Shown: positions 33,745-60,934 of the stretch, piece after piece | Position numbering within the stretch: the first letter of the stretch is position 1 | How the letters are laid out: each line of letters begins with the position of its first letter | NCBI RefSeq assembly: GCF_020144665.1 | Contig: NZ_JAAHBQ010000003.1 | Location: 27,371-91,370 of the forward strand | DNA length: 64,000 nucleotides | Direction of reading: 5' to 3' | Source of the DNA: Oscillatoria salina IIICB1 | GTDB taxonomy: Bacteria > Cyanobacteriota > Cyanobacteriia > Cyanobacteriales > SIO1D9 | Position numbers and translations under genes: made by a program | The notes under the pieces: generated by a model | The model's database searches: none | The model's input: only the letters and a program-made list of their open reading frames with translations | Told to the model about the DNA's origin: nothing

Positions 33745-35385
33745 GTGGCAAAAATGTATCCCGAAACTTTAAACCCTGATGTGAAAAGCCCTGCGGAAAG
33801 ACTTTTATATCAAGCCTTCGCTGAACAATTACCAGACAATTATACCGTTTTACATCAAGTTTCTTGGCAATATCGTCATCCCAATAGTCTTGTTGAAGAT
33901 GGGGAAACAGATTTTGTCATTGTTGAACCTAGTTTAGGTATTTTAATTCTGGAAGTAAAAGGTGGTAAAATACGCTACGATTCTACCCTCGATAAATGGT
34001 ACAGTAATCAACATCAAATCAAAGACCCTTTTTGGCAAGTTCGTCAGAGTAAACACCAACTTATCAAATTACTTAAAGAAAAATCTTATTGGCAAAAACG
34101 CTGGATTGATATCGGACATTGTGTAGCTTTTCCAGATGTAATTGTTCCCCAACGACTACTTCCTGATGCTCCACGGGAAATTATTCTTGATAACAGTAAT
34201 CTTGATAATTTAGCTACTTGGATTAAAGATGTACTAATTTATTACCGTCGTCAGGATAAAAATCAGGAAGCTGGTAATTTTTTCAGCATTCAACGTTTAG
34301 TAAATCTTCTCAAACCATCAATTTATTTGCCATCTTTACTGAGTGCAACTATTCAACATCAGAAACAAGAATTAATTAAACTTAGCGAACAACAATTTCG
34401 CATTCTTGACTTTTTAGGAAGACATCGACGTGCAGCTATTAGTGGTTGTGCGGGTTCGGGTAAAACCTTGTTAGCAATGGAAAAAGTTCGTCGTCTCAGA
34501 GAACAAGAATTTACGGTTTTACTTGTTTGTTATAACAGAGGTTTAGCTAAGTTTTTGCGTCGTTCATTTGTTCGAGATAAAGATTTATATATTTATAATT
34601 TTCATGCTTTGTGTAAAAAACTTGTTAGTCAAGCGAATATATCTCTTACTAAAAAGCAAACTAATAATAAAAATCTTCTTTTCAATGAAATTTATCCCTC
34701 GCTACTTGTGGATGCTGCTAACAAACTTAACTGGAATGTTGATGCAATTGTTGTCGATGAAGGACAAGATTTTCAAACTAACTGGTGGTTAAGTTTAAGA
34801 AGTTTGTTATCAAATCCAGATAATGGCATTTTTTATGTTTTTTATGATGATAACCAAAATCTTTATCAGCAAAAAAGTTATCAGTTTCCTTCAGAATTAG
34901 AAATATCTCCCTTTGTCTTAACCGAAAATTGGCGCAACACTAAAAGAATTCATGACCATGTATTACAATATTATCGTGGCGAAAATTCACTTACTGTCTT
35001 AGGAGAAGAAGGACGAGATCTAGAATTTTATACTTATCCAAGTAACAATAATGAAGCCTTAAAAAGGCAACTTGGTCGTCTTTTATATCGTTTAGTTTTT
35101 GATGAAGGTGTCAAAGCTGATGAAATTGCAATTTTGACAACTACGCGGAAACAATCACTACAAAATCAGCTTGCAGGACAGTTCCGAATTAAAGCAGACC
35201 CAGACCCTTATTGTCAAGAGATTTTGTGCAATACAATTTATTATTTCAAGGGACTAGAAAGTCCGGTAGTAATTTTAGTGGAAACTCAGTTAAATCAAAT
35301 TCCTCAACTGAGAAATCTGCTTTATGTAGGTGCTTCTCGTGCGCGTAATCATTTAATTGTACTACAGCCGGAAGAAGAATTTTAA
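33745..35385 (+). CDS. NERD-domain superfamily I helicase-like protein
   Basis: A 546-residue cytosolic protein. The N-terminal NERD (nuclease-related) domain includes AERLLYQAFAEQLPDNYTV and DGETDFVIVEPSLGILILEVKGG (~53-75), retaining the D..EVK nuclease core. A UvrD-like ATPase follows, with Walker A ISGCAGSGKTLLAM (~232-245), Walker B AIVVDEGQDF (~334-343), LTENWRNT (~391-398) and motif VI YVGASRARNHLIVL (~526-539). The start is GTG, chosen because AGGAAA lies 8 bp before it. Such NERD-helicases occur in defence islands and DNA repair contexts; the adjoining mobile and restriction debris fits an accessory role. Confidence 0.87.
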   Translation: MAKMYPETLNPDVKSPAERLLYQAFAEQLPDNYTVLHQVSWQYRHPNSLVEDGETDFVIVEPSLGILILEVKGGKIRYDSTLDKWYSNQHQIKDPFWQVRQSKHQLIKLLKEKSYWQKRWIDIGHCVAFPDVIVPQRLLPDAPREIILDNSNLDNLATWIKDVLIYYRRQDKNQEAGNFFSIQRLVNLLKPSIYLPSLLSATIQHQKQELIKLSEQQFRILDFLGRHRRAAISGCAGSGKTLLAMEKVRRLREQEFTVLLVCYNRGLAKFLRRSFVRDKDLYIYNFHALCKKLVSQANISLTKKQTNNKNLLFNEIYPSLLVDAANKLNWNVDAIVVDEGQDFQTNWWLSLRSLLSNPDNGIFYVFYDDNQNLYQQKSYQFPSELEISPFVLTENWRNTKRIHDHVLQYYRGENSLTVLGEEGRDLEFYTYPSNNNEALKRQLGRLLYRLVFDEGVKADEIAILTTTRKQSLQNQLAGQFRIKADPDPYCQEILCNTIYYFKGLESPVVILVETQLNQIPQLRNLLYVGASRARNHLIVLQPEEEF

Positions 35386-41345: not shown

Positions 41346-42155
41346 GTGAAAACCGATACCATATTTTATCGCCTTTTTCAATCTTTTCCCAGCAGCTTCT
41401 TTGAACTGATTCAACTTCCGCCTTCAACAGCAGAAACTTATCAATTTGCCTCAGTAGAAATCAAACAGCTTGCTTTCCGCATTGACGGCGTATTTCTTCC
41501 GGCTACAGAAGCAACTGAAGAACCGATTTACTTTGTTGAAGTCCAATTTCAACCAGACAAAAACTTTTACTCTCGCTTTTTTGCCGAAATCTTTTTGTAT
41601 TTGGACAAAACTGAACTAAAAAACGACTGGCGTGCAGTTGTTATCTATCCGACGCGCAATACTGATAAAGGAGAAATAACGCGCTATCGAGCCTTACTCG
41701 CATCGGAACAAGTTAATCGTCTTTATCTGGATGAATTAGATTTTACTACTGAAGAGACTCTTGGCATAGAAACAGTAAAATTAGTAGTAGCTGACGAGGA
41801 AACAGCACCCGTTCGGGCAAGACAGTTAATTGAGAAAGCCACAACAGAAATAACTGATGCTTCTCGACAAAGAGAGCTAATACAATTAATAGAAACGATC
41901 GTAGTTTACAAGTTTACCAACTTAAGTCGTAAGGAGATTGAAGCCATGTTAGGATTAGGCGACATCAAGCAAAGTAAGGTCTATCAAGAAGCTTTTCAGG
42001 AAGGTGAAGAGCGCGTTAAGCTAGCCGCAGTACCCGCAATGTTGGCTTTAGGGGCATCTGTGGAGTATATCGCTGAGGTATTGGCTATGGATGTGGAGGA
42101 AGTCAGCGAATTAGCCCAAAATCAACCTCAAATCAATTCTGGAGACGAAAATTAA
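41346..42155 (+). CDS. DUF2887/Rpn-family putative nuclease
   Basis: A 269-residue protein, GTG start, of the PD-(D/E)XK-like Rpn/DUF2887 group that is very frequent in cyanobacteria. KTDTIFYRLFQSFPSSFFEL (~2-21) is the family start. FRIDGVFLPATEATEEPIYFVEVQFQ (~44-69) holds the D...E-x-Q nuclease core. The C-terminal part, EIEAMLGLGDIKQSKVYQEA onward with GEERVKLAAVPAMLALGAS, is the usual tail. Rpn relatives promote recombination and cut DNA; cellular role here unknown. A decayed copy of the tail follows directly. Confidence 0.88.
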   Translation: MKTDTIFYRLFQSFPSSFFELIQLPPSTAETYQFASVEIKQLAFRIDGVFLPATEATEEPIYFVEVQFQPDKNFYSRFFAEIFLYLDKTELKNDWRAVVIYPTRNTDKGEITRYRALLASEQVNRLYLDELDFTTEETLGIETVKLVVADEETAPVRARQLIEKATTEITDASRQRELIQLIETIVVYKFTNLSRKEIEAMLGLGDIKQSKVYQEAFQEGEERVKLAAVPAMLALGASVEYIAEVLAMDVEEVSELAQNQPQINSGDEN

Positions 42156-42636: not shown

Positions 42637-45600
42637 ATGTTTGTTTATCGCACCTCTGTTTTTAACAATCAAGTAAAAGAACGAAATCTTAGCGATCGCG
42701 TTAACCGTCTCTGTGACGATCTCGAAAGCATGACGGTTGATGAAGTATTGGCACATTTTGAGCGTTTGTATCCTTATCTCAAGCGTAAAGAAGGTAATCT
42801 GCGCTTAATTGCTCGCATCCGTCGCGTAGGGAACGACCAAATTCTTTGCTGGTTAGCGGTTTTTAGGCGTGGTGACAGCAAATACGAGGAATTTTTGCGA
42901 GAACGGGAAAAATTTAGTAACCCCTCTCTGGATGGTCAAATTCAGCATCTTGAAGAATGGCTGCGGGAACAAAAAGCCTCCACAAAGGAAATGCAACCTT
43001 CGCCTCCACCTTTAGACGGAAATTTATTACCTTGGCTCGATCCTCCTTCTTGGCAAAAGCATACTAGCGATGAGGTAGTAATCTATGAAAGTGAAACTTG
43101 GCTAAATTTATTTCAAACTCCAGAAATCCAAAATCAATGGCAAATTTATAATCGTCTCATTGCCAATCTTGCCTCTAATAATGACTCAATTGGCGAAAGT
43201 ACGGGGTTTGATGGCATCAAAATTTATACTGAAAAACAGCATTCTCTTTTATTTAGCAAAATTATTACTTCTGATACTCCCGAAAGGAAAGTTTTGTTTC
43301 TCCTCGCTCCTTTTGCTAAAATACCTTCCCCTGAAGAAATTCAGCACATAGCCGAAGCAAACCAAATCAATTGTTTATCCGAACGACTGCAAATAGATGA
43401 CTTAACTTTTTCTGCCAAACGTGCCTATCCCAGCTATTTATTAGCAGATGAAAAAAGTTGGTTGGCAATCGAAAAAGAAGAAGCCGCCAATTTAGCACTT
43501 TCTGCCGAAGAAGAAGCAATTCTGCATTCAGTTTCTACTTCTAACCCATCTTTACCATTATTTTTAAACGGGCAAGCAGGTAGCGGCAAATCTACAATGT
43601 TGTTCCACCTTTTTGCTGATTACTGTCATCGACACTGGCAGTATTGTCAAGAAGAAAAAAGAGATTTTTTAAGCAAGCCACATCCTTTATTTTTAGCATA
43701 TAACGATCGCCTACTCAAAGTTGCCCAAGAGCGAGTAGCAGCTTTACTAGCATCACATCACCGCTTTCTGGAAAGAAGAGGTGAAGAAATCGAATTTCCA
43801 GATATTAGTCCCTTTTTTCAATCATTACGGACATTTTTACGAGATTTGCTTCCGCCAGAAGAACGCGATCGCTTTCTCGATGCTAATTATATTTCTTTTC
43901 ATCGCTTTCGCCAACTTTGCCGCCGCGCTTGGCGCGGCTATTCACCAGAAAGATGTTGGTTAGTAATTCGGACTTTTATTAAAGGATATCATCTGGATGA
44001 ACGGGATGTTTATCTAGAACTTGAAGATTACCAAGAAATTCCTCGCCGTGAAAGAACTGTTTCCACTGAAGAATTCAAGAAAATTTACGACCATGTTTGG
44101 AAATGGTACAAAAAGCGTACTGAAGAAAATAACGAATGGGACGACCAAGATTTAATCAGAAAAGTGCTACAACTTAAATGTTACAATTCTGAATATACAG
44201 CTATTTTTTGTGACGAAGCGCAAGATTTTACCCAATTAGAATTAAAATTAATCATGCGCTTGTCTGTGTTTTCTAACTACGATTTAGAACATCAGCACGT
44301 TGAAAGTTTGCCTTTTGCATTTGCCGGAGATCCGCTTCAAACTCTCAATCCTACTGGCTTTCGTTGGGCTAGTCTGAAAGCTGCTTTTTACAATGAAGTA
44401 ATTGCCGCGCTTTCGCCGACAGGAAGATTAGGATTAGAAATGAACTTTACTGAATTAGAGTGCAATTATCGCTCAATTCCACCCATTGTCGGCGTGAATA
44501 ACTTAATCCAACTTTGGCGGCGAGTGCTATTTGACATTCCCGAACTCAAACCCCAACATACGAAAAAAAGTGGAGAATTTGCGCCAGAGAAATTTATTTT
44601 ATCGCAAAATATTCAACCAGAAGATATAGTTTTGTATTTGCAAAATACAATTATTATTATTCCTTGCGATGAAGGGGGAGAAATAGATTATGTACAAGAT
44701 GATGAAATTCTCTGTCGTCTAGTTTCCGGAGAAGAAAATGCCGAAGCACCTTGGAATGTTCTCAGCGCGATCGCCGCAAAAGGCTTAGAGTTTAAACAAG
44801 TTGTTCTCTACAAATTTGGCGAAGCTTGCGATCGAAAAGCTTGGAAAACAAACGACGATCGTGGTGAAGAGATTAAATACTTTTTTAATAAGCTTTATGT
44901 GGCGGCAAGTCGCGCCACAGAACGGTTATTTATTATTGATACAGAAACCGGAGAACACAACTTGTGGAAACGAGCAAGTACCGAAGCAGAATTAACTCAA
45001 TTCATTCAACAATTACCTAGAGAAAGAGAGCAAAAACAATGGCAAGAAAGGATAAAATTAATCAGTTTGGGTAATAGCCCCGCCGAATTAGGTACAGATG
45101 ACTTGCAGGCGATCGCGCAAACTTTCGAGACGGAAGGGCTACAGTCACAAGATCCTGACTGGCTAAGGCGCGCCCAAAGAGCATATCTAAAACTTGACAA
45201 TTATACCCAGGCTGTGGTATGCGAAGCTTGGGCACTGAAACTAGAAGCACAATATCTAGAAGCTGGATCTCGCTTTTTACAACTAGAAGAAGTAGAAGAA
45301 GCTTGGAATTGTTTCTGGGAAGGAATGTGTTGGACAGAATTAATTAATTGGTACGAAGAACAAGAAAAACAACCCAATCATCAAATATCAACCGCTCGCG
45401 CTTCAGTTCGTCCTTTAATTAATTTTATGGCAAACAATTACGAACAATCAATTACTCGTCTGCAAGAATTTACTACTTTCTTAGAAACAGAAATAACTAA
45501 CAAAAAACTCGCCGAACATCGCTTCAGCCAACAATGGCAAAACGCCCTCCAAGACTACGCCCAAACTATCTCAAAATTACAGTCAAATCAGCAATTAATA

Positions 45601-46881
45601 CCAAACGAACAATGGCAACGTTTTGGTCAAGTCTTGCTTCAACTTGCCCAAGCTGGATATCAAGAAGATACCTTGACAGCACAAGCGGCTGAATGCTTTT
45701 ACCAAAGTAAAAATTATGCCCAAGCTGTAGAATCTTGGGAACAAATTCAAGCAACTCAAACACCAGAATATAATTTCGCTAAATCTGAGTTAGTGGGAAT
45801 GCCTACAGGATTAGAATATCTGGCAAAAATTTCAGCTTATCAACGCATAATTTTACTTTGGCAACAGACAGGGCAACCTAAAGAAACTGCTTGGTTAAAT
45901 TATGTTGCCCCTGCTTTAGAAGCGCTCAATCAATATAAAAATGCTTTTATTATTTATACTTGGTTAGATCTCCCCAGCAAAGTCCAAACTTGTTGGCAAA
46001 AAGCTACCGACAATCAACCAGAAGTCAAATCTCTCCGGGCTTTACTACATTATTATCTAGGTTATCGCCATTGGGAAAACGCGATCGCTAGCTTAGAAAC
46101 TTATTTATCAACCCTAAAGTCAGCAGAACAAATTGCTTTAAAATTTGACTTCGTTTATCACTTGGCTGCTTCTCGTCTCACCCCCGAAAGTCTCAATACT
46201 GATTTGCGTTTGCGTTATGAAGAATTTATGAAACAAGAGATTATCAATTCTTCTACCTGGCAACAATATCTTTTGATGGAACATTTAGGAATTACGTTAG
46301 AAAAAATTGGCTCTCTTGTCGAAACATTAACATTTTACGAGCAATACATCTCCCACGCAAATACAGACTTACGTTTACTTGCAAGGAAACGCTGGTTAGC
46401 AGTCAAAACCAAACAAAAAGATTACTTCCGTAACCAAGGACAAATTAACAAAGCTGAGAGAATTAACTCAGAAATTACCAGAAAAGCAAAAAATTGGGGC
46501 ATCACTTTAGAAAATCTTTCTCTTGAAGCACCACTTCCACCTAAACAGCGTCCCAATCCCAAAGTTTCTTTCTTAGTCAAAACTCAGACTCGGAAACCGC
46601 AAGTAGAAACTAGACAAATTCGTCATTTACTGATTAAAACAATGAAGGAACGAGGCTTGATTTTAATTAAAGATCTTCTTAGCGAAGAAAAAATTCGCAT
46701 CTCCAGTGCATCTCGCCAAATTCAAATTGGTGCAGTTACAGTAACAGCTAAGGAAAGTGAAAATTTATCCTTTTCTGTGCCTACTAGCGGATATAACGGA
46801 GTGGTTATTTATAACAGTAAAAATGTCCGTCTCGAATTAGAAATTGCTGGCGAAGAAAATAAATCGATCGTCGAACTGTAA
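42637..46881 (+). CDS. Giant UvrD-like helicase with TPR-like C-terminal region
   Basis: A 1414-residue cytosolic protein. Residues ~1-95 form a small alpha/beta module (LYPYLKRKEGNLRLIARIRR, ILCWLAVFRRGDSKYEEFL) whose pattern resembles RelE/ParE-like folds. A superfamily I helicase core follows: Walker A FLNGQAGSGKSTMLFHLF (~308-325), motif II CDEAQDF (~525), ELECNYRS (~605), AAKGLEFKQVVLYKFG (~713) and motif VI YVAASRATERLFII (~752). Residues ~800-1300 are helical TPR-like repeats (YTQAVVCEAWALKLEAQYL, AAECFYQSKNYAQAVESWEQ). The last ~100 residues form a separate domain. Function unknown; the architecture suggests an RNA- or DNA-sensing defence or repair protein. Confidence 0.88.
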   Translation: MFVYRTSVFNNQVKERNLSDRVNRLCDDLESMTVDEVLAHFERLYPYLKRKEGNLRLIARIRRVGNDQILCWLAVFRRGDSKYEEFLREREKFSNPSLDGQIQHLEEWLREQKASTKEMQPSPPPLDGNLLPWLDPPSWQKHTSDEVVIYESETWLNLFQTPEIQNQWQIYNRLIANLASNNDSIGESTGFDGIKIYTEKQHSLLFSKIITSDTPERKVLFLLAPFAKIPSPEEIQHIAEANQINCLSERLQIDDLTFSAKRAYPSYLLADEKSWLAIEKEEAANLALSAEEEAILHSVSTSNPSLPLFLNGQAGSGKSTMLFHLFADYCHRHWQYCQEEKRDFLSKPHPLFLAYNDRLLKVAQERVAALLASHHRFLERRGEEIEFPDISPFFQSLRTFLRDLLPPEERDRFLDANYISFHRFRQLCRRAWRGYSPERCWLVIRTFIKGYHLDERDVYLELEDYQEIPRRERTVSTEEFKKIYDHVWKWYKKRTEENNEWDDQDLIRKVLQLKCYNSEYTAIFCDEAQDFTQLELKLIMRLSVFSNYDLEHQHVESLPFAFAGDPLQTLNPTGFRWASLKAAFYNEVIAALSPTGRLGLEMNFTELECNYRSIPPIVGVNNLIQLWRRVLFDIPELKPQHTKKSGEFAPEKFILSQNIQPEDIVLYLQNTIIIIPCDEGGEIDYVQDDEILCRLVSGEENAEAPWNVLSAIAAKGLEFKQVVLYKFGEACDRKAWKTNDDRGEEIKYFFNKLYVAASRATERLFIIDTETGEHNLWKRASTEAELTQFIQQLPREREQKQWQERIKLISLGNSPAELGTDDLQAIAQTFETEGLQSQDPDWLRRAQRAYLKLDNYTQAVVCEAWALKLEAQYLEAGSRFLQLEEVEEAWNCFWEGMCWTELINWYEEQEKQPNHQISTARASVRPLINFMANNYEQSITRLQEFTTFLETEITNKKLAEHRFSQQWQNALQDYAQTISKLQSNQQLIPNEQWQRFGQVLLQLAQAGYQEDTLTAQAAECFYQSKNYAQAVESWEQIQATQTPEYNFAKSELVGMPTGLEYLAKISAYQRIILLWQQTGQPKETAWLNYVAPALEALNQYKNAFIIYTWLDLPSKVQTCWQKATDNQPEVKSLRALLHYYLGYRHWENAIASLETYLSTLKSAEQIALKFDFVYHLAASRLTPESLNTDLRLRYEEFMKQEIINSSTWQQYLLMEHLGITLEKIGSLVETLTFYEQYISHANTDLRLLARKRWLAVKTKQKDYFRNQGQINKAERINSEITRKAKNWGITLENLSLEAPLPPKQRPNPKVSFLVKTQTRKPQVETRQIRHLLIKTMKERGLILIKDLLSEEKIRISSASRQIQIGAVTVTAKESENLSFSVPTSGYNGVVIYNSKNVRLELEIAGEENKSIVEL

Positions 46882-58080: not shown

Positions 58081-58231
58081 GATGTTTCGCTTCGCTCAAC
58101 ATGACATAATTACAGTTATTCTTAAAAGTAAAAATGGGTTTGGGAGATGTTTCGCTTCGCTCAACATGACATAATTACAGTTATTCTCAAAAGCGAAAGT
58201 GGGTTTGGGAGATGTTTCGCTTCGCTCAACA
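58081..58231. repeat. 65-bp tandem repeat, about 2.3 copies
   Basis: The unit GATGTTTCGCTTCGCTCAAC starts at 58081, 58146 and 58211, giving an exact 65-bp period; the third copy is partial and diverges after CAACAT. ATGTT...AACAT inside each unit is a short dyad. The rest of 57877-58291 holds no gene; before the array there are TTTCCCGAAACTTTCCCGAA-type direct repeats and a TGTCATTCTGAG segment of a kind dispersed in cyanobacterial genomes. Confidence 0.9.
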
Positions 58232-58291
58232 TCACTTTGTGAGTGTTATTGTGAAATAGGAATCCTCTCCGCACAGTCAAACTCTCCTACT

Positions 58292-60934
58292 ATGCCTACT
58301 TTTAGTTACGGTGAAAAATCACAACAGAAAGTCCAGGAGTTGCTCGAAGCGTTACTCAATTTTGTTGATGGGGAATTGGGTGACGACTACATTAACGCTA
58401 AAGTGAGCTTTCGCTGGGAAGAAAAAGACAAAAAAAAAGGCGAAGAAAAAGACGAAAAAGACAAAGACGAACTGAAATTAACTGTCGAGACTACTTTGGA
58501 AACGCTGCGACAGTTGATTTATGGGAAGGGAAAAATTGACCCAAAAGCGAAAAAAACCCAACGTAAAGAGATTGGGGCAATTCTGACTCACTACTTGGGG
58601 AAATTTCTGGGAATTTGGGAAGACCGTCGGCTTATTAAACGAGGTTCGGAGAGGTGGGTTTTTGTACTGAAGCTGTGGAGTAAGGACAAAGAGGAAAATC
58701 TGCGGCGGTTTCAAGAAGAGTGGCGAAAGCGTCAGCCGAATAATTCGGTTTCGGTTTCGGTTTCGGTGGAGATGGGGGGAAAGGCTGAGGAAAGTGAGGA
58801 AAATCAGCAAAAACGAGCGATAGGTTTGGAAACGCTGCCGGAAGTGCGGGTTTGGGAAGGAAGAGAAACGCTGGTGGAGAGTTTGCGGGGGAATTTACTC
58901 GTGAGGGAAAATCCTCCGAAGGTAGTGGCTTTGGTGGGACAAGGAGGAATTGGAAAGACTTCGCTGGGGGTGAAACTCCTGGAAGCGGTGGGAGTTGAGC
59001 TTAAACCGCCCAGATTAGGCACGGATTGCGCTTATGATACAGTATTCTACTTTAAAACTGAGCCGGGGACAAGTTTCGATGAAATTGCGGAATTTCTGTT
59101 AGAAAATCTGACGGTTGTAGGGTTGGAAAATTTTCCCGATGCGGCGCAAAAGATTAAGAAAATTATCGCTGAGTTGACAAATCAGCATTGTTTACTATTT
59201 TTAGATAACTTGGAAGTAATTTTACAGCCAGCGAGTGAGGAAAGGGCTGGATATGCCGTAACGCAGGAGTGGGGACAGTTTCTCAATCAGTTGGTTTATA
59301 GCAATCATTGCTCGCAGGTGATATTGACGAGTCGGGAATTGCCGCGAGATTTGGCTGATTCTCGCTGTGTTGGAACTGAACCAGACCCGAATTTGGTATG
59401 TTTAGAAACGGTGGGTGGGGTGGCGGTAGAAGCGGGGGTGAAAATTCTGCGTCAATATCAATTGAAAGACAAGGAAAGCGATTTATTTTGGGTGTCGTCA
59501 AGGGTTGATGGGCAGGTATTTATTTTAACTCAATTGGCGGCAATTGGGAGGAGGAAACCGGGCTATCTTCGCAAGCATCCAGAGTTAGTAACGAAGAAAG
59601 CGGAACCGATTTTATTAGAGCAATTAAAGAGACAAACTGAAGCAGCAAAAGATTTGTTACGGCGGATGTGTGTTTTGCGGGTGGGAATTGATGTTACTGG
59701 TTTGACTTTTTTGCGGCTTTATACGAATGATTTGGCGCAAGATCCGCGTTTTGAAATAGCATCAGAAAGGGAAGAAGCTGCGGAATTAACTGATGGGGAA
59801 ATAGAGGAAACGGAAGCAATTATTCAGCAGTTGGTAGATTGTTCTTTGGTGCAAAGTCGCTACGATGAGGAAGAGTGCGAAACTTATTATGATTTGCATC
59901 GAATTATTGTGGAGTTTCTGCAAGCTGAGTGTAAAAATGAGTTACCTCAATTGCTGGAAACGGTATATAAGTTTTATTGCACGGGGAAGAATGTGGAAAA
60001 TCCCCAAAGTTTAAATGATTTACGTCCGGTTTTGGAGGCGCAATTTTTTGCTTTTCAGTTGGGAAATTATCGGGAAGCTTACCTATTAGTTAATAATCTA
60101 GGAAGTTATTTACGACCTTGGGGACATTGGAATTTATTAAAAGATTTATGCGAAGAAGTTTTACCTTATTTAGATGGGGATTACTATGGAATTTGTTTGC
60201 AATGGATTGGAGTAATTTATCGCGATTTAGGTAGATGGAATGAAGCCAAAAAATATTTTACTGAAGCCTTAGCCAACGCAGAAAAGCAAGAAAGTAAAGA
60301 AGATATAGCTTATTCTGTCGGACTTTTGGGCGAGATTGAGCGAAATCGGGGTAATTGGGACGAAGCTCAAAGGCTGTTTCGACAATCGTTGCAGTTACAC
60401 GAAGAATTAGGCGATCGCACGGGTATGGCTGCTGTTTGGGGAGTTTTGGGCGATATTGAGCGAAATCAGGGTAATTGGGACGAAGCTGAAAAGCTGTATC
60501 GACAATCGTTGCAGTTACGAGAAGAATTAGGCGATCGCGCGGGTATGGCTTCTTCTTGGGGAGTTTTGGGCGAAATTGAGCGAAATCGGGGTAATTGGGC
60601 TGAAGCTCAAAGGCTGTATCGACAATGCTTGCAGATAGAGGAAGAATTAGGCGATCGCGCGGGTATGCCTTACTCTATTGGTTCCCTTGGCGAAGTTGAA
60701 CTAGGTAGAGGTAACTTAGATACAGCAGAAAAATACTTAATTGATGCTTTAGAAAGATTTCAAGCATTAGAAGATGTCCAGTATGTTGCTGAATGTACTT
60801 TTCGCCTTGCTCAAGTATGGCGCAAGCGAGGTAATGAAGAAGTTGCCGAAGAACATTACCATACTGCTTATCAAATCTATCAGCAACTCGGTGCAGCGAA
60901 GGATTTAGAAAAAATTGAAAAGGAATGGAATTAG
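58292..60934 (+). CDS. NB-ARC STAND protein with C-terminal TPR array
   Basis: An 880-residue cytosolic signalling ATPase. I start it at the ATG at 58292, since the frame upstream runs through the 65-bp repeat. The N-terminal ~155 residues (FSYGEKSQQKVQELLEALLN, ILTHYLGKFLGIWEDRRLI, ENLRRFQEEWRKRQP) form a helical module I have seen in cyanobacterial NB-ARC proteins, followed by a VSVSVSV linker. The NTPase has Walker A VALVGQGGIGKTSLGVKLL (~214-232), Walker B CLLFLDNLEVIL (~304) and QVILTSRELPRDLA (~346). The C-terminal TPRs (~640-850) include three nearly identical 40-residue units. Likely sensor and oligomerising switch; the effector is unknown. Confidence 0.9.
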   Translation: MPTFSYGEKSQQKVQELLEALLNFVDGELGDDYINAKVSFRWEEKDKKKGEEKDEKDKDELKLTVETTLETLRQLIYGKGKIDPKAKKTQRKEIGAILTHYLGKFLGIWEDRRLIKRGSERWVFVLKLWSKDKEENLRRFQEEWRKRQPNNSVSVSVSVEMGGKAEESEENQQKRAIGLETLPEVRVWEGRETLVESLRGNLLVRENPPKVVALVGQGGIGKTSLGVKLLEAVGVELKPPRLGTDCAYDTVFYFKTEPGTSFDEIAEFLLENLTVVGLENFPDAAQKIKKIIAELTNQHCLLFLDNLEVILQPASEERAGYAVTQEWGQFLNQLVYSNHCSQVILTSRELPRDLADSRCVGTEPDPNLVCLETVGGVAVEAGVKILRQYQLKDKESDLFWVSSRVDGQVFILTQLAAIGRRKPGYLRKHPELVTKKAEPILLEQLKRQTEAAKDLLRRMCVLRVGIDVTGLTFLRLYTNDLAQDPRFEIASEREEAAELTDGEIEETEAIIQQLVDCSLVQSRYDEEECETYYDLHRIIVEFLQAECKNELPQLLETVYKFYCTGKNVENPQSLNDLRPVLEAQFFAFQLGNYREAYLLVNNLGSYLRPWGHWNLLKDLCEEVLPYLDGDYYGICLQWIGVIYRDLGRWNEAKKYFTEALANAEKQESKEDIAYSVGLLGEIERNRGNWDEAQRLFRQSLQLHEELGDRTGMAAVWGVLGDIERNQGNWDEAEKLYRQSLQLREELGDRAGMASSWGVLGEIERNRGNWAEAQRLYRQCLQIEEELGDRAGMPYSIGSLGEVELGRGNLDTAEKYLIDALERFQALEDVQYVAECTFRLAQVWRKRGNEEVAEEHYHTAYQIYQQLGAAKDLEKIEKEWN

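Follow-up and report, generated by a model that had tools for sequence, protein, structure and literature searches.

In a stretch of 64,000 nucleotides from the genome of Oscillatoria salina IIICB1 (the window, to which all unprefixed positions refer), one gene encodes a 1414-residue protein that joins a RelE-superfamily domain, a second and degenerate RelE fold, a superfamily 1 (SF1) helicase core, a solenoid resembling tetratricopeptide repeats (TPRs) and a C-terminal domain in a single chain (Table 1). This protein is a probable, so far unrecognised defence effector that acts as a single protein, because it combines an intact-looking RelE toxin with a helicase and a scaffold and because its relatives in other bacteria often lie inside antiviral defence operons. 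A more specific reading, the most economical one but one on which we are evenly divided, is that it acts as a self-contained, ATPase-gated RelE ribonuclease that needs no antitoxin and halts translation once infection or stress has been sensed, several phyla using it as an immune effector. The open reading frame (ORF) is exactly the one given in an initial annotation made from the sequence alone; it begins with ATG, and this start is backed by the homologues, which align with it from M1 onwards (M[YF]VY...).

Neither Pfam nor NCBIfam gave a match above its cut-off for the 1414-residue protein, and PADLOC gave no credible one: Pfam returned only sub-threshold helicase and P-loop matches, and NCBIfam only a weak PcrA match. 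With sequence-profile matches this weak, the analysis rests mostly on structure, conservation and context. As a sequence search of solved structures with the same protein matched neither RelE nor a helicase, folds had to be compared. Residues 1-1196 were modelled with AlphaFold2 (AF2) at a predicted local distance difference test score (pLDDT) of 88 and a predicted template modelling score (pTM) of 0.78, and residues 1-300 at a mean pLDDT of 90, the latter from an alignment of 60 homologues belonging to many phyla (alignment A2).

In the AF2 model, the order of elements in residues 1-105 is that of the RelE topology, C-terminal helix included. In the PDB, the first 21 Foldseek matches all come from toxin-antitoxin structures belonging to the RelE/HigB/YoeB superfamily. 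VIA-align gave a Z score of 9.4 for HigB2 against residues 1-105 and of 8.7 for T. thermophilus RelE (2khe) against residues 1-87, with a root-mean-square deviation of 2.0, and placed the ribosome-bound CRISPR RelE effector Cami1 among the nearest folds (8phj, Z 8.8; 8phb, Z 8.6). Profile-profile comparison of this domain with three RelE-superfamily sets scored 19.6-21.0, above all 18 control comparisons, which were made with other pieces of the same protein (7.4-15.0). The three best conserved of 110 positions are Y83 and R56 (each in 59/60 homologues) and R78 (57/60), with K49 identical in 54/60, although identity over the remainder is down to about 25%. The 49-56-78-83 spacing resembles that of K54-R61-R81-Y87 in Escherichia coli RelE, where the substitutions R61A, R81A and Y87A abolish mRNA cleavage and the lysines matter less (PMC2807027). 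The first domain looks like one that keeps an intact RelE-type active site and is a predicted ribonuclease. The initial annotation had called about 95 N-terminal residues RelE/ParE-like from a motif that corresponds to residues 48-83; fold and conserved catalytic pattern now agree on this, the likeness going beyond chance in AF2, Foldseek, VIA and profile-profile comparisons, and an unrelated N-terminal fold can therefore be set aside.

A second RelE fold, not mentioned in the initial annotation, lies between the first domain and the helicase. VIA matched RelE1 (9g12) to residues 142-229 with Z 8.2 and ribosome-bound RelE (4v7j) to residues 146-244 with Z 8.1. E151, W155 and L222 are conserved in it and the basic residues are missing. 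We read it as a degenerate twin of the first domain that possibly serves as its built-in partner or inhibitor.

The helicase is a complete SF1A core of the UvrD/Rep/PcrA type, as shown by the match of Rep (1uaa, Z 18.6) and PcrA (Z 17.4) over about residues 287-811 and by motifs I, II and III-VI, all of them invariant or nearly so among homologues; its Pfam matches stay under the curated cut-offs. The best helicase fold matches are Rep, PcrA and UvrD (Z 15-19), with Upf1 lower down the Foldseek list, and ATP-dependent unwinding activity is predicted. The SF1 core, the TPR-like array and the separate end domain of the initial annotation are thus all recovered: the array forms a solenoid of helix pairs in the AF2 model, matched by Foldseek to the TPR chains of LGN and OGT, and the last approximately 100 residues (about 1310-1414), unmatched in Pfam, are conserved within cyanobacteria and variable in other lineages. 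By eye, the homologue at L084:10001-14158 (+) has an FHA-like domain in place of the C-terminal domain, which hints at swapped sensor modules, and those of L111, L112, L116 and L118 have a short helical tail there that resembles the tails of small cyanobacterial antitoxin-like proteins.

Table 1. Window positions of the gene, the domains of its product and their motifs
Feature	Residues	Position	Strand	Basis
ORF of 1414 aa: RelE-like domain, second RelE fold, SF1A helicase, TPR-like solenoid, C-terminal domain	1-1414	42637..46881	+	ORF call, full-length homologues
RelE-superfamily domain, predicted ribonuclease (b1-a1-a2-b2-b3-b4-a3)	1-105	42637..42951	+	AF2, Foldseek, VIA, profile comparison
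Predicted catalytic residues K49 (42781-42783), R56 (42802-42804), R78 (42868-42870), Y83 (42883-42885)	49-83	42781..42885	+	conservation, RelE-like spacing
Second RelE-fold domain without basic catalytic residues (degenerate)	142-244	43060..43368	+	VIA, conservation
Superfamily 1A (UvrD/Rep/PcrA-type) helicase core	287-811	43495..45069	+	fold match, invariant motifs
Walker A GQAGSGKS	312-319	43570..43593	+	motif conservation
Walker B/motif II DEAQD	526-530	44212..44226	+	motif conservation
Motif VI YVAASR	754-759	44896..44913	+	motif conservation
TPR-like alpha-solenoid (modelled to 1196)	815-1300	45079..46536	+	AF2 helix pairs, Foldseek
C-terminal domain, probably beta-rich, lineage-variable	1310-1414	46564..46878	+	alignment, no Pfam match

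Two other identities were considered for the protein and rejected. Its AAA_16 and nSTAND Pfam matches, which might have made it a STAND NTPase, are below cut-off and cover the P-loop only, the modelled fold being that of an SF1 helicase; the PADLOC match to GajB of the Gabija system (E 0.0011) is confined to two short stretches, and GajA is not beside the gene in the window.

A scan of the genomes of 84,980 species yielded 79 loci, most of which keep the full architecture, in Cyanobacteriota, Chloroflexota, Bacillota, Riflebacteria, Acidobacteriota, Bacteroidota, Pseudomonadota and others. Outside the cyanobacteria, the homologues are often found in defence operons. One (L105) belongs to a type III-B CRISPR locus, where a CARF-TM gene precedes it and the gene for Card1 comes next, with Cmr1, Cas10, Cmr4 and Cmr6 also upstream, and another (L108) begins about 100 bp past the end of a six-copy CRISPR array. 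Restriction-modification (RM) contexts recur: L110 lies inside a type I RM operon with HsdS and HsdR flanking it, L137 is flanked by a PD-(D/E)XK nuclease and a type III Mod-Res pair, and L132 comes after Dcm and a type II RM helicase. SspB, SspD and Cmr3 are near L117, and the homologue at L121:5506-10905 (+) is fused at its C-terminus to an ATPase resembling HEC-01A/AriA (residues 1409-1784). The 85 nearest non-cyanobacterial neighbours matched 278 PADLOC models, among them REase_I, REase_III, MTase_III, Specificity_I, SspB and CARF effectors, while 85 control genes from eight of the same genomes matched 33, mostly generic ATPases and kinases. Downstream of the L121 fusion, a 208-aa protein looks by eye like a DUF4276/TOPRIM partner.

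Several apparent associations were discarded. Matches of a quick scan for CRISPR arrays near other loci were judged to be simple repeats or chance, the array at L108 alone being convincing; a repeat-like stretch seen by eye at L109 gave no array in a repeat search; and the PDC-S11 match at L120 (E 1.6e-11) was left uncounted because a control set yielded one as well.

Closer to the window, a match was found in 20/60 genomes of the order and 22/244 genomes of the phylum, some of these matches spanning the helicase part only, so that the gene is not the universal cyanobacterial core gene that the initial annotation had named as the outcome opposed to its claim. A helicase tree puts the window copy into a large cyanobacterial clade that is mainly vertical; a second cyanobacterial group is separate, and elsewhere the phyla are mixed. 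The 50,697 phage records searched contain no match and the plasmids no full-length copy. The single homologue from a viral contig (IMG/VR), at L219:184-4536 (+), is full length, lies near an apparent terminase gene and could be prophage cargo; with these counts, a phage origin of the gene was rejected. Two cyanobacterial genomes (L079, L102) carry the gene as two separate ORFs, which suggests decay or sequencing errors.

We infer a ribonuclease activity, its dependence on the ribosome, an order of gating, a trigger and, for this cyanobacterium, a part in defence along the following lines. The first RelE domain would cleave mRNA, the ribosomal A site being the most likely place. The degenerate RelE fold, together with the helicase ATPase, would hold or release this domain, and sensing a trigger or recruiting a target would fall to the TPR-like solenoid with its C-terminal domain. 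The helicase may engage nucleic acid, such as foreign transcripts, single-stranded DNA or stalled translation, upon which the RelE domain would be set free by ATP turnover and would stop translation, leading to abortive or dormancy-type protection. A bolder version, which we put forward only tentatively, is that the protein belongs to an undescribed family of prokaryotic immune effectors in which a UvrD-type motor senses a nucleic-acid mark of infection and releases the intact RelE domain onto translating ribosomes by way of the RelE twin and the solenoid, the family being an add-on to type III CRISPR and type I/III restriction in other lineages and standing alone in cyanobacteria. If this is true, a widespread and so far unnamed effector would join bacterial immunity, and a built-in ATPase motor could take the place of antitoxins or cyclic-nucleotide sensors in governing RelE ribonucleases. 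Because the catalytic residues are conserved, the idea lends itself to direct testing.

Several observations weigh against a defence role or against the toxin assignment behind it. The cyanobacterial neighbours, those in the window included, are mostly housekeeping genes in conserved synteny, and the cyanobacterial gene looks largely vertical. Cyanobacterial neighbours matched 138 PADLOC models and control genes 21, a modest rise that is due to few proteins; because many models are redundant and inflate them, these counts and those from other lineages are indicative and fall short of a formal test. Only 3/60 members match the Pfam family ParE_toxin, the best E value of 0.031 falling short of the curated cut-off, and the catalytic residues were assigned by spacing and general register rather than by a residue-level structural superposition. 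The context is strong outside the cyanobacteria and weak within them, and no classical defence gene lies within 4 kb of the gene in the window; for this reason the single-protein defence system of the initial annotation, supported in part by the operons of other lineages and set back by housekeeping synteny and a largely vertical tree in cyanobacteria, is still something that we infer.

The conserved, non-island location of the cyanobacterial gene is the main argument for a role in stress or RNA surveillance. In such a role, which we consider unlikely, RelE would cut the mRNA of stalled ribosomes and the SF1 helicase would clear RNA or RNA-protein complexes, making the protein a housekeeping ribosome-rescue factor or, in cyanobacteria, an accessory, non-immune stress factor. 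An analogue exists in the UPF1-plus-endonuclease module of eukaryotic nonsense-mediated decay. The largely vertical clade and stable synteny agree with this explanation, as do the Upf1-type helicases in the Foldseek list and the ribosome dependence of the active site in known RelE members (PMC2807027), but the presence of the gene is patchy even inside the order, the top helicase match is of the UvrD/Rep type, that is, a DNA-helicase type, and the non-cyanobacterial operons are defence operons. In an equally improbable explanation, both RelE folds are dead adaptors binding RNA, ribosome or protein, and the core of the protein consists of the helicase and a TPR sensor, which target foreign DNA beside RM or CRISPR systems in the manner of a GajB-like motor. 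UvrD-type helicases are common as parts of defence systems, the second RelE fold has indeed lost its basic residues, and the RelE-fold (RTL) domains of CoCoNuT helicases are of uncertain activity (PMC11090510); the first domain, however, has best kept exactly the RelE nuclease residues while diverging elsewhere, which speaks against dead folds. The degenerate fold could also be an intramolecular inhibitor of the toxin domain in a selfish, addiction-like arrangement that unites toxin and antidote on one polypeptide. We regard this as very improbable: neither the ATPase nor the solenoid would be needed, plasmid and phage copies are almost nil (one viral contig), and there is no antitoxin neighbour, since the window holds no adjacent small antitoxin ORF and no small neighbour recurs across loci.

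Among described systems, the closest relative in design is the CnuH helicase of CoCoNuT (Type II/III-A, PMC11090510), likewise an SF1 helicase fused to a domain of RelE/colicin-D fold, in a defence setting and predicted to be RNA-directed. CnuH differs in having a UPF1-like helicase with OB and SmpB-like domains and in needing McrB/McrC-type partners, and its RTL domain has no sequence conservation with known toxins (PMC11090510), whereas the protein described here has a UvrD/Rep-like helicase, an N-terminal doubled RelE fold, of which the first domain keeps the catalytic pattern, and a TPR-like solenoid; no McrB-type GTPase or McrC-type partner was seen among the annotated neighbours, which are a subset of all neighbours. 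Cami1 and other CARF-RelE proteins of type III CRISPR systems share the RelE-fold ribonuclease domain, Cami1 being an immune effector, and a type III-B locus holds one homologue of the present protein. Gating of Cami1 is the task of a CARF domain that binds cyclic oligoadenylate, but Pfam and PADLOC scans found no CARF domain in the 1414-residue protein, which has a helicase and a TPR-like solenoid instead. With the type II toxins RelE, HigB and YoeB it has in common the fold and the pattern of catalytic residues, and it differs from them in lacking an antitoxin gene, in being a huge fusion and in a sequence that falls under family cut-offs. Human SLFN11 (Schlafen), an antiviral protein that is among the helicase fold matches, also carries a ribonuclease and an SF1 helicase in a single chain; its nuclease fold is unrelated and its architecture different, so that the resemblance is one of analogy only.

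The pairing of toxin and helicase recurs in cyanobacteria. Two-domain RelE-UvrD fusions occur at L215:1483 onwards (+), where the RelE part scores above the Pfam ParE cut-off, and as ORFs of 676-762 aa in G008, G023, G024 and G027, and in a separate UvrD-TPR group (L036-L040) some members have a weakly recognisable HigB/YoeB domain at the N-terminus. Both sets likewise place the toxin fold ahead of the helicase, and the UvrD-TPR group shares the TPRs as well, but they differ from the protein in the window by a single RelE fold, a helicase recognised by Pfam and an identity of 23-27% over the helicase. Our literature search found no report on either set and no description of a RelE-UvrD-TPR protein.

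The immediate surroundings of the gene in the window deserve brief mention. A gene for a putative nuclease of the DUF2887/Rpn family (41346-42155, +) lies directly upstream, and a flavin adenine dinucleotide (FAD) oxidoreductase gene is found upstream in eight loci, that of the window among them. Further upstream, the N-terminus of a 546-aa protein (33745-35385, +) resembles the MADS defence kinase MAD6 (NCBIfam, E 5.8e-12, residues 1-132); this stretch is probably a NERD-type nuclease domain, and an SF1 helicase core comes after it. About 11 kb downstream, a 911-aa protein (58199-60934, +) has by eye the look of a STAND/NB-ARC-type ATPase with C-terminal TPRs, and its gene is possibly another one of the conflict type.

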